Source of the DNA: Girardinichthys multiradiatus
Lineage: Eukaryota; Chordata; Actinopteri; Cyprinodontiformes; Goodeidae
NCBI RefSeq assembly: GCF_021462225.1
Contig: NC_061804.1
Span: 15,062,005 to 15,126,004 of the forward strand
Direction of reading: 5' to 3'
Length of the DNA stretch: 64,000 nt
Within the stretch, counting starts at the first letter, position 1, and each line of letters opens with the position of its first letter. Position numbers and translations under genes: made by a program. Shown piece after piece: positions 45,007-49,694 of the stretch. Below the pieces are notes generated by a model. The model was not told where the DNA came from. It saw only the letters and a list, made by a program, of their open reading frames with translations, and made no database searches.

Positions 45007-45838
45007 TTTATTTTAATGATAAGGATTATGACTTACAACCAATCAAAACCAGTAATTCCATTTTTCAACAAATAAAATATTACATTAGATTGATAAAAAA
45101 TATGTTTAAAATAGAATTGTTATGTTCTGGCCATGTAATGTCCTAGACAATCATGGGAAAGACCACTGACTTGACAGTCGTCAGGCAGACAGTCACTGAA
45201 GCTCTCCAAGAAGCTATTAAAGGTCATTAAAGGTCATTGCTAAATAAACGGACTGTTCACAGAGAGCTGTTTCCAAACATATTAATGGAAAGTTCATTGG
45301 AACACTGATAGAAAAAGGTACACAAACAACACGGATAACAGCAACCATTAGACCAACTGCAAAGCAAAATCTATTTACAAGTTTGGAAGAGATTTCCAAG
45401 TGGACTGCAGTGGGAGTGAGTGGTGCAAGAGCCTCCTCACACAATGTATCTAAGTCATGAACTAAAACTGTCACATTTGTAGGATTACATTCTCTATCTA
45501 AGCCACTCCATAACTAGACAATGCATCTGAAGTGTCTTAACTGGGTTACGGTAAAAAACCAAAACTGTTTATGAATGGTCTAAGGTCCTCTTTTTAGCTT
45601 TCGAGTAAATTCTGCATTAATTTAAAAATCAAGATCACAAAGTCTAGAGCAGTGGAGAGGCATGGAAACCAGGTTGCTTAAGATCCAGTATGAAGTTTCC
45701 ATAGTCAGTGAAGATGGCAAGCTTTACAGATATACTGATTTGATTTTCCGGAAACTGCCCTCACCAGTACCTGCTTTATTGATAATGATATGACTGGGCT
45801 TGACTGGACGAGAATTTGCCTGACCTAAAGCAGAAGGA
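45007..45838 (+). pseudogene. Transposase of the split mariner-type element, N-terminal and central part
   Basis: Nucleotide words in order correspond to a Tc1-like transposase: GTCAGGCAGACAGTCACTGAA (N-terminal HTH start), TTAATGGAAAGTTCATTGGAA, GCACAAAG-like linkers, then GTAAATTCTGCATTAA and TGACTGGACGAGAATTTGCCTGACCT near the SPDLN motif. Stops and deletions, including most of the central core, rule out function. The C-terminal end lies at 49278-49410 beyond the SINE (AACCAGACCCAGTAATGCAGATGAGCTGAAA). Confidence 0.72.
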
Positions 45839-45884
45839 ATGGACGAGGTGGCTGCACCCTCTACCGACTGGCCGTCAAACTAGT

Positions 45885-45975
45885 TTCTAACAAATTCGTA
45901 ACACGGTCCTAAGATTCCTCTCAAAGTCCTAACATATTCTAACAAAGTCCTACCGATTCCTAACAACTCCTAACA
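45885..45975 (+). repeat. Subterminal TCCTAACA-type repeat cluster
   Basis: Five to six imperfect copies of (T/A)(C/T)CTAACA(A/T) within 90 bp: TTCTAACAAATT, GTCCTAACATATTCTAACAAAG, TTCCTAACAACTCCTAACATC, with related GTCCTAAG and GTCCTACC. They lie 30-120 bp from the left edge of the block, where transposases of hAT and other superfamilies bind arrays of short sites. Confidence 0.6.
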
Positions 45976-46243
45976 TCTTACGTTTTTTTACGTATCACGT
46001 AGGTCATGCGCAGTGGGCGGAAAACAACAGAAATTGATGTTGTTTTGGCTCCTTTTTTAAAGTCGTGAAAAAATTGGTATATATGATCGATAGTTTATCA
46101 GTTTGACGTGGGTCTGCTACAAATAAAAATCTCACTTTACATTATTATTTTTTACATATTGTTCATTGCATCATTCAGGTAATATTTTGCTTGAAATATT
46201 ATGATATATGTGGCATCTGCTGTGATTTTTAAAGGTTTTAAGA

Positions 46244-48479
46244 ATGACAAAGACGGGAAAACCGGATGCCGATTGGGCTGGTGTTATGCAGCTGTATGCT
46301 CAGGGGAAGTTTAGGTTTACCACCGGTAAGAGACCTGGAGGCAGAAGATGGAAGGCTGTCATCCAGCAGATAGACAGATGTCCACTGACTCCTGTCTTCA
46401 ATCAGAAAGCTCGAACAATTGATATATTTGGGGAAAAAATCCCCTGCAAATGTGGCTATCATAAGGTAAGTGAGAATGTTTCTATTATTTATGTACAGTA
46501 GTTGTATAAAGTAGATGTTTCACACAAGTGCCTTTCACAATAACTGATTGTGTGTTGTGTGTTTTAAGGTGTAATTTCACAAAAATGTGTTTGTTACCTT
46601 CCTCAGTATATAACATTAAATATTGAGGTTTACAAAATTCAGTCTAAACTGGAAAAAATTTAATGTTTTATCACAAATAACCTTTTAAAAGCATAGCAAA
46701 TTTATTGTTGTTTTCCCACAGTCAGCTGAGCAGGCAGGTTCAACAGGGATTCAAGCACAAAGCAAGTAAGGTGCAGGGACAGCATCAGCTTACCAAGCCA
46801 TCCAGAGCAGCCAAAGTGTATGTTGGGCCCCAGCAGATCCAGCCACACAGAGCAGTTCAAATGTAAAAAGAGCCTCAGTAGATCTTGCCATCCACAGGAG
46901 CTCAAGTCTAGATGGAGCTGCAGCAGATCCCGCCACACAGAACAGTTCAAGTGTAGGCAAAGTTCCAGCCAACCCCACAAAGCAGAGGACCTCAAATGCA
47001 GGGAGCAGGCAGCCTCAAAGCTTGTCAATCAATCAAAACCCAGGGCAGCTAAAGTGTGCAGTATGTAGTGAAAACATCAATGTGGAACTGTTTTCTGAAC
47101 ATTTGTCTGACTTTCATGCAGAGCAATGTTGTGAACTTTGTGGGAAAAAGGTGAATGGTGCAGTTGGGCTGCTTAACCATATTGAAGAAGGTCATGATCC
47201 ACTACGCCAAACATCAACATCTCCGCCACACCAACTACTACCATTCAAACAGCAACAATACCAACCACAACATGGGAAACCTGTAACGCCACACCAACAA
47301 CCACCACTTCAGTCACAACAGTGCCTTGGACCAATGCAACACCCCCAGCCAATTCCTCCGGCTGCTTCTTCTCATGTTGTCCACCTTAGGCCTCCAGAGG
47401 TGAATTGGGTGAGTTTTCTTCCCAAGCAGTTCTTGCGGGTCATCAAGGCAGCAGACCAGGAATGGATTGCACAGTGCCTTTACAACCCTGCAGGCCAATT
47501 CAGACAACAGTTTTCCCAAAACTGGTTTCATCCACCCAGTTCACCAAAGGTAATGACTGCACCTCCTGATCCCCATTTCTACTTCAGGCAGCGAATGTTT
47601 CTTTGGGCACCTATGCGGATGTGGGGTATTTCTCTAAAGTGTCCTCAGTGCAATACCAAAATGCACCACTCTGGGATCTACACAAAGGTAAGAGAAGTCA
47701 TTGACCTGGATTCGAGATATTATTTGATTGGGGCTGATTATCCAAGATGCAGTAAATGCATGATTCCTGTCTGTCCATGGAGCACCGAGGTCTTAAGCCA
47801 GTTAGATCCTGCCCACAGAAACAGGTTCCCAGCTATTCTCACAACACAGCTGGCTCTGGACAAAAGGTGTGTGACATTGCTGAAACCACGAACTGTTGGA
47901 AATAGCTCCAGTTATGTGCAGCAAGCATTAGAAGAGTTGCACAGCGAGGAGTGGGCAAAGCGCACCATTGAATATCTGTCTGACTGTGAGCTTCACAAAA
48001 AGAAAACTGCCTTAACCAGGAGCGATGAAGTGGTCTACCAGAAACCTCCACCGTTTTGCCCCCTTCCTCTTGCACAGTGGTTTGAGACAGTGCATGCCAA
48101 CGAAATACTCTCTCACTTGGATGAGATGAAGGGTGTCATTACCTCAACATATGGCAGGATTTTAGAGCTTGACTCTACCAAAAAGGTATAGTAAAATCCA
48201 AAAATATTTCTCAATCCAATTATTATTCACGTTTTGATGTTCTTGCTATAGATTTTCTCTAAACTAAACAGATCACAAAAAAACTTGCTGGTGGAATTGC
48301 AGAGACGGCTACGTGGATGACAAACATCACCAACGAGTATGGCCAAGTTCTGAACTGTGTGCTAACCACAGGTGAAGGAGCAGGTTTAGAGGAGCTATGC
48401 CAAGGCATTGTCCTGCGTTTTCAGAATGCTGGGGAGCCAGAGCCAGAAATCATTTATGTTGACTGCTGTGGTGCATCAG
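46244..48479 (+). pseudogene. Three-exon gene: C2H2-like fingers, DUF6729-like domain, start of a putative transposase fold
   Basis: Exon 1 is 46244-46465, ending at a perfect donor AAG|GTAAGT. Exon 2 is 46722-48185 after TTTTCCCACAG. Exon 3 is 48272-48479 after AACTAAACAG, ending at CAG|GTGTGT. The first two junctions keep phase 0. Only one stop interrupts the reading: TAA at 46767-46769. Exon 2 encodes a Ser/Gln/Ala-rich linker, two Cys2His2-like fingers (CAVC...H, CELC...H), a Pro/Gln-rich stretch, then a conserved region with FLWAPMRMWGISLKCPQC, DYPRCSKCMIPVCPW and NRFPAILTTQLALDKR, which I associate with DUF6729. Exon 3 reads ATWMTNITNEYGQVLNCVLT and EIIYVDCC, like the first strands and an Asp of an RNase H-like transposase. 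Later exons are missing. Function is inferred. Confidence 0.72.
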
Positions 48480-48800
48480 GTGTGTGATCTTATGATTATT
48501 TTTTTTTTTTTGCACTTAAATGTAGTGTTTGTTAAATGTCCAAATAAAAAAAAAAAACATTTTAGGATAATTAACACAATTTAAGAGAAATATATTTTGA
48601 ACAGGTTTTTATGGCCTATGTAACAGTTATGTTTTATGTCACAATCTTAATAACATGAGCCCTGAGTCATCAGAAAAATAAATACTGCAGAATTTAATTA
48701 TTTGAGATGTATTTAGTTTTTTTGTTTAAACCTCCAGTTCTTGAGTGGTTTCAACCATAGCAACCAATTCAACCAATAGCAGTCCCTTTTGCCCCATTTT

Positions 48801-48875
48801 TGGCCGAGTGGCTAAGGCGATGGACTGCTAATCCATTGTGCTCTGCACACATGGGTTCGAATCCCATCCTCGTCG
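48801..48875 (+). pseudogene. tRNA-Ser(GCT) sequence, 5' 11 nt displaced by 2.95 kb
   Basis: From the D arm onward the sequence is a textbook cytosolic tRNA-Ser: TGGCCGAGTGGCTAAGGCG, anticodon loop CTGCTAA with GCT at 48827-48829, long variable arm, T arm with GGTTCGAATCC (B box, 48854-48864) and 3' acceptor strand CCTCGTCG. The matching 5' strand GACGAGG is at 45842-45848, so the acceptor stem cannot form from one transcript. Joined conceptually, with the duplicated TGGC counted once, it is 82 nt, the normal length. It is the head of a SINE rather than a free-standing gene. Confidence 0.88.
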
Positions 48876-49694
48876 TCCAGTTGTTGCTGTAAAGAATTTG
48901 TCCCTGGAATGAAAAACAACCTCTAGGGCTGCACGGTGGCGCAGTTGGTAGCACTGTTGCCTTGCAGCAAGAAGGTCCTGGGTTTAATTCCTGGCTGGGG
49001 GTCTTTCTGGATGGAGTTTGCATGTTCTCCCCGTGCATGCATGGGTTCTCACCGGGTACTCCGGCTTCCTCCCACAGCCCAAAGACATGCCTGTTAGGTT
49101 AATTGGTCACTCTAAATTGCCCTTAGGTGTATGAATGAGTGTGTGCAAGGTTGTTTGTGTGTTGCCCTGCAATGGACTGGCGACCTGTCCAGGGTGTACC
49201 CCACCCATAGACTGCTGGATATAGGATATGGAATAAGCAGTAGAAAATGACTGACTGACTGACTAAAGCAGAAGGAAAGAAATGGTGGAAGTTTTTTATG
49301 AGAAAGATGAGAGAAACCAGACCCAGTAATGCAGATGAGCTGAAAACCTCAGCAGTACCAGGGACTGGTTGCCTCCATGCCACTTCACGTTGATGCAGTA
49401 ATTCCTTTACTGCCTCAGTACTCCTTTAGAACAGTATATGCATATACTGTACAATACATTGATTCAATGGGCCAACATTTCTTTAATAAAGATACGTTTT
49501 TATGGTCTTAGTATTACAATTTGTTCCTGTAAGTTAGATCATCAAACTTAAACAGAAATAAACATTTAAAATGTATCACTCACTTTGTGACTTTTTTAAA
49601 ATTAATTTAGAGACTTAGATAAACTAAGTCTCTAAACTAAATTAACTTAGAGAAACTTTATACTGATATCCTAATTTGTTGAAATGCACCTGTA

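Follow-up and report, generated by a model that had tools for sequence, protein, structure and literature searches.

A very probable Dada-tS-type DNA transposon, internally deleted, within a tRNA-Ser(GCT) sequence

The split tRNA-Ser(GCT) sequence and the edges of the insertion

The window (the whole stretch of DNA analysed, 64,000 nucleotides, C11:15062005-15126004) contains a tRNA-Ser(GCT) sequence interrupted after nucleotide 13 by a 2.95-kb block (45855-48800). All features of the window described here lie on the + strand. Nucleotides 1-13 of the tRNA, which comprise the acceptor strand and the left target-site duplication, occupy positions 45842-45854; within them, GACGAGGTGGC (45842-45852) occurs once on the + strand of the whole window and nowhere on its - strand. 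The tRNA restarts at 48801 with TGGCCGAG and extends from nucleotide 8 through the discriminator base (48801-48875), including an Rfam tRNA match of 41.1 bits at 48801-48867. The two acceptor strands, GACGAGG (45842-45848) and CCTCGTC (48868-48874), pair exactly. When the flanks are joined without the block, ARAGORN calls an 82-nt tRNA-Ser(gct), and it calls no tRNA in the unjoined window. An earlier sequence-only reading of this DNA had located a foreign block in the A box of a tRNA-Ser(GCT), with the head of the tRNA at 45842-45852 and the remainder from 48801; the joined tRNA and its complementary acceptor strands bear out the location, and both positions stand.

The block is bordered by a 6-bp target-site duplication with one C/T mismatch, TGGCTG on the left (45849-45854) and TGGCCG on the right (48801-48806), from which the limits of the element are set at 45855-48800. 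Hexamers within one mismatch of TGGCCG account for 135 of the 63,994 hexamers of the window. The same reading had proposed a 4-bp duplication (TGGC) and a left edge at 45853. The shorter duplication was rejected because all junctions agree better with a length of 6 bp, and the left edge is moved to 45855.

The target as a probable retrocopied tRNA-Ser and SINE unit

The interrupted tRNA is followed by a tRNA-related SINE with a (TGAC)n-like tail (48926-49262). A 15-bp direct repeat, CTAAAGCAGAAGGAA, flanks the whole unit: its left copy (45825-45839) ends 2 nt before the tRNA and its right copy (49263-49277) directly follows the SINE tail. Positions 45825-49277 hold, within this repeat, the tRNA-Ser(GCT), a 50-nt linker and the SINE, as if they were one retro-inserted transcript.

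It is fairly probable that the transposon entered such a retrocopied unit rather than a working tRNA gene, a reading compatible with the Dada explanation given below. The repeat around tRNA-Ser, linker and SINE argues for it, as a shared 15-mer was seen in none of 200,000 pairs of randomly drawn 30-mers. Furthermore, the SINE copies at two other loci examined carry no tRNA-Ser and have their first base at, or inward of, the position equivalent to 48926, and the tRNA/linker/SINE junction has a single match in the genome, itself, among the best candidates scored. However, the genome search returned no source locus among those candidates, and the CTAAAGCAGAAGGAA repeat may have a chance or segmental origin. 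Most likely, retro-insertion of a tRNA-Ser transcript that extended into the SINE came first, and Dada entered the tRNA head afterwards. The suggestion that the tRNA was part of an abundant SINE, and that this SINE was the target, was rejected upon that one junction search, which recovered the junction itself only.

Structure and deletions of the element

Close to the left end, positions 45885-45979 contain subterminal direct repeats of about 21 bp with the TCCTAACA motif, the 21-bp units being seen at 45922-45963. Subterminal repeats had already been noticed from the sequence, and are now defined as 21-bp direct repeats. In a copy on contig C24 (locus L012), these repeats are expanded to a long tandem array, located about 1.5 kb ahead of the element body.

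The right part of the element is best understood by comparison with a longer copy on contig C8 (locus L014). Homology between the two extends up to 48758 and begins again at 48777. Positions 48738-48758 are the remnant of the exon that follows the 48272-48479 exon, and homology to the C8 copy stops at its end. An 18-bp junction follows (48759-48776), in place of 4,514 bp that the C8 copy possesses (L014:4721-9234). Just 24 bp are left of the right end (48777-48800). The C8 copy has a deletion of its own and lacks the equivalent of window positions 47032-47749, and a different deletion, starting at window position 46238, is common to the copies on C11 (the second one on this contig), C18, C22, and C24.

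The transposase gene

Three coding exons are recognised upstream of the deletion. The first (46244-46465) begins with MTKTGKPDADWAG, has a putative splice donor, and is 69% identical to residues 1-78 of the homologue P0006. The large exon (46770-48185), whose 5' splice acceptor is provisional, lies in the largest reading frame (46770-48191, 473 codons) and encodes a zinc-finger region, the DUF6729 domain, and the first catalytic Asp (LELDSTKK). The next exon (48272-48479) ends in the second catalytic Asp (IIYVD), and splicing from 48185 to 48272 places the two Asp residues 68 residues apart. A four-Cys motif is present at the N-terminus, with a spacing of 3-33-3. The resemblance of the gene to DUF6729 proteins, reported from the sequence alone, is confirmed by a Pfam match (PF20499) in the large exon with an E-value of 4.4e-86 over model positions 3-229 of 229.

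The window copy ends soon after the second Asp, and the DxxH motif, the catalytic Glu, and the CCHC finger are absent from it. These are found in the C8 copy, where DIFH lies 22 residues past the second Asp and the Glu of SSVESFH 164 residues beyond DIFH, yielding a second Asp-to-Glu distance of 186. Near its end, the C8 copy carries CSVC-x9-H-x8-C, a CCHC arrangement with a spacing of 3-10-9. In the copies on C5, C8, and C14, tblastn matches to P0006 and P0090 follow one exon after another. A Pfam search of two open frames of the C8 copy gave nothing above the cut-off.

Among 7,995 candidates scored, 91 homologues were found, and PF20499 is present in 89 of them. Ray-finned fishes supply most of the named relatives, which also include lancelet and sea urchin sequences. 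Regular expressions for DxxH and for the Glu both match in 18 of the 91 homologues, at a distance of 164-165 residues in 15 of them and a shorter one in three; the other homologues do not match both expressions, and many are partial sequences. A narrow regular expression for the first Asp matched none of the homologues, and this residue was checked in the window copy and by visual inspection of P0006 and P0090. The AlphaFold2 model of P0006, computed from 41 sequences, is poor (pLDDT 59), and a Foldseek search of the PDB with it returned 151 matches at E ≤ 10, of which not one reached E ≤ 0.001.

As read from the order of its sequence motifs, DUF6729 is a part of the Dada transposase that lies before the DDE core. 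Of note, DUF6729 is harbored by many fish proteins annotated as uncharacterised, and by some from Labeo rohita that bear the name "Carboxyl-terminal PDZ ligand of neuronal nitric oxide synthase"; these are probably Dada transposase fragments.

Recurrence at tRNA genes in the genome

The genome searched comprises 1.15 Gb in 72 contigs. The left terminus, YACCCTCTACCGAC, is found at four places including the window, with up to three mismatches allowed, and the reversed-pattern control at none. Four of the five readable left ends abut a tRNA sequence, of Ser(GCT) in two cases and of the Ser(aga) type and Leu(taa) in one case each, and the fifth is irregular. The left flank of the window copy is GACGAGGTGGCTG, from tRNA-Ser(GCT). 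On C14, the flank is GATGAGGTGGCCG followed by five extra nucleotides, GGCCG, and the copy lies within an array of tRNA-Ala and tRNA-Ser(gct). The second copy on C11, located beside a tRNA-Leu(taa) array, is preceded by ACCAGGATGGCCG, identical to nucleotides 1-13 of both intact tRNA-Leu(taa) genes that lie no more than about 2.2 kb away. The C8 copy lies within a tRNA-Ser array, and its left end starts a few nucleotides inside the element, after GCATGGCAGTTGCTG (GTTGCTG at the junction); these are the same 15 nt that lead into nucleotide 7 of a nearby intact tRNA-Ser(aga), and 10 nt may have been lost at this junction. The irregular left flank, on C22, consists of a tRNA-like head, GGACGAGGTG, 12 unrelated nucleotides, and then TGGCCG. 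Upon reading the flanks of the second C11 copy and of C22, no match was seen beyond the tRNA head.

Right ends are known at nine places or more including the window, eight of them from the search, and six reach the terminus. Three of these six abut tRNA-Ser and one is doubtful. The window and C8 right ends are followed by TGGCCGAGTGG of tRNA-Ser, starting at nucleotide 8 with TGGCCG. The right end on C25 continues into AGTGGTTAAGG, read as nucleotide 14 onwards of a tRNA-Ser(tga)-like sequence, without TGGCCG and without an ARAGORN call. The doubtful case, on C22, continues into TGTCAGCAAC, which resembles a tRNA-Ser 3' end, one other right end shows no tRNA in its few readable bases, and the flank of the sixth is unreadable.

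Left ends thus stop after nucleotide 13 and right ends resume at nucleotide 8, so that the overlap is 6 bp, nucleotides 8-13, with the sequence TGGCCG. The sequence-only reading had asked whether the termini recur at a fixed tRNA position with a duplication of fixed length. The termini do recur at the same tRNA position, elsewhere in the same genome. The length is answered in part: the junctions imply a 6-bp duplication of nucleotides 8-13, but a recognisable duplication at both edges is kept in the window copy only.

Heads of tRNA-Ser are also observed apart from these junctions. Locus L034 (C14:36280600-36290500), in the array of tRNA-Ala and tRNA-Ser(gct), contains 22 further sequences within two mismatches of GAYGAGGTGGCCG (tRNA-Ser nucleotides 1-13), eight of them exact, and loci L017 and L011 contain two and one, respectively. 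Nearly all those in L034 continue with TGTGAACGATAG or similar, instead of the rest of the tRNA. They resemble tRNA-Ser cut just after the Dada-tS target, and are perhaps relics of older insertions that were amplified with the array.

Probable affiliation to Dada-tS

The following comparison draws on two papers; the literature searched on Dada and tRNA-Ser yielded, besides these, one on casposons. Kojima 2022 (PMC8869645) names Dada-tS in fish, with a target of TGGCCG followed by AG at tRNA nucleotides 8-13, and describes tRNA-Leu as having the same target site as tRNA-Ser and duplications as replaced or missing in other Dada families. Kojima and Jurka 2013 (PMC3706591) give for Dada-U6_DR a D567-D635 spacing of 68, a D-to-E distance of 176, and a zinc finger formed by C1359, C1362, H1372, and C1381.

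The element shares with Dada-tS the insertion site at nucleotides 8-13 of tRNA-Ser, TGGCCG followed by AG, as well as the 6-bp duplication and ray-finned fish hosts (PMC8869645). It differs in that the window copy is cut internally to 2.95 kb and has one mismatch in its left duplication, and in that one relative in this genome stands at a tRNA-Leu(taa) head, a site possible by sequence according to the same paper. With Dada-U6_DR and Dada-U1, it shares the D-D spacing of 68, the DxxH motif, and the CCHC spacing of 3-10-9, together with introns, internally deleted derivatives, and the lack of terminal inverted repeats (PMC3706591). The target RNA gene is different, the D-to-E distance is 186 in the C8 copy versus 176 in Dada-U6_DR, and the N-terminal zinc spacing is 3-33-3 here versus 5-35-3 there (PMC3706591). 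Four traits that characterise Dada are found, distributed between copies: a duplication of 6-7 bp (of 6 bp in the window, where one position differs), a fixed site in a multicopy small RNA gene (4/5 left ends and, with or without TGGCCG, 3/6 right ends), a DDE triad with DxxH (the D-D pair in the window; DxxH and Glu in 18 of the 91 homologues and in the C8 copy), and a C-terminal CCHC finger (kept in the C8 copy, missing from the window copy).

We consider it very probable that the window copy, which resides in a fish-like genome, is a non-autonomous Dada DNA transposon with an internal deletion, and that it is of the Dada-tS type. The element would belong to this described lineage on the strength of target and motifs, rather than of a tree. 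The alternative that it represents an undescribed superfamily, defined by a DUF6729 protein, a 4-bp duplication, and the targeting of tRNA genes, is very improbable. In its favour, Pfam lists the domain as of unknown function, the term DUF6729 is not found in Kojima 2022 (PMC8869645) or elsewhere in the literature searched, and the exact identity at the edges amounts to 4 bp. However, the catalytic and CCHC spacings equal the published Dada values (PMC3706591), the duplication fits 6 bp, and the target site and sequence are those of Dada-tS (PMC8869645). The DUF6729 gene, once held to argue against Dada, lies in the Dada transposase itself, and the notion of an undescribed tRNA-targeting transposon loses its support since Dada-tS, with the target TGGCCG, was already named in 2022 (PMC8869645). 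A single chance hit of an ordinary transposon on a tRNA, which had also been envisaged, is the least probable reading and was rejected: several genome copies are truncated or lack clear tRNA flanks, but the termini recur at the same tRNA nucleotides.

What is new beyond the published Dada-tS amounts to small additions, namely the DUF6729-Dada link, the tRNA-Leu(taa) junction, the 9-nt match described below, and the retrocopy-like unit. The published Dada-tS target is confirmed in one more genome, and an uncharacterised Pfam domain is tied to the Dada transposase. Few DNA transposons are target-specific, and those that are have been discussed as tools for gene delivery.

Proposed mechanism and resemblance of the right end to the target

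A mechanism can be outlined that is consistent with what is observed, namely the position of the element, its termini and duplication, the repeated occurrence at one tRNA position, and the protein motifs. The Dada transposase would be a DDE enzyme bearing zinc fingers at both termini, and would make a staggered cut in tRNA genes at the TGGCCG of nucleotides 8-13, which forms part of the pol III A box. The element would then be joined at the staggered break, generating the 6-bp duplication; this cut-and-join chemistry is attributed to the Dada transposase by presumption. The C/T mismatch in the left duplication would reflect later decay. The stretch between the second catalytic Asp and a point close to the right end, about 4.5 kb, may have been lost after insertion, or before it if the copy transposed in trans.

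How the target is recognised may be hinted at by the right end. Dada-U6 and Dada-U1 possess subterminal repeats that are also present in their targets at the same distance (Kojima and Jurka 2013, PMC3706591), whereas equal-distance subterminal inverted repeats at both ends, as described for these families, were not found in the window element. The reverse complement of the right terminus (48777-48800), however, shares GGACTGCTA in register with the tRNA-Ser(GCT) target, at +16 to +24 from the duplication, and in the tRNA this segment lies in the anticodon arm. A 9-nt in-register match was reached by 20 of 200,000 random 40-mers of the window, a frequency to be read with the fact that the match was sought after seeing the sequence and that both ends were tried. 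The longest in-register run between the left end and the target is 3 nt, and an extra ATTTT in the C8 copy shifts its right end by 5 nt. The 9-nt match is thus suggestive, as a pattern in sequence. It is possible, albeit rather doubtful, that one transposase domain reads both the right end and the tRNA gene and tolerates any TGGCCG-containing tRNA (Ser, Leu); if true, the target mimicry of Dada-U6 and Dada-U1 would extend to tRNA-targeting Dada. The match offers a concrete and testable lead on a possible mimicry of the tRNA target by a Dada end.
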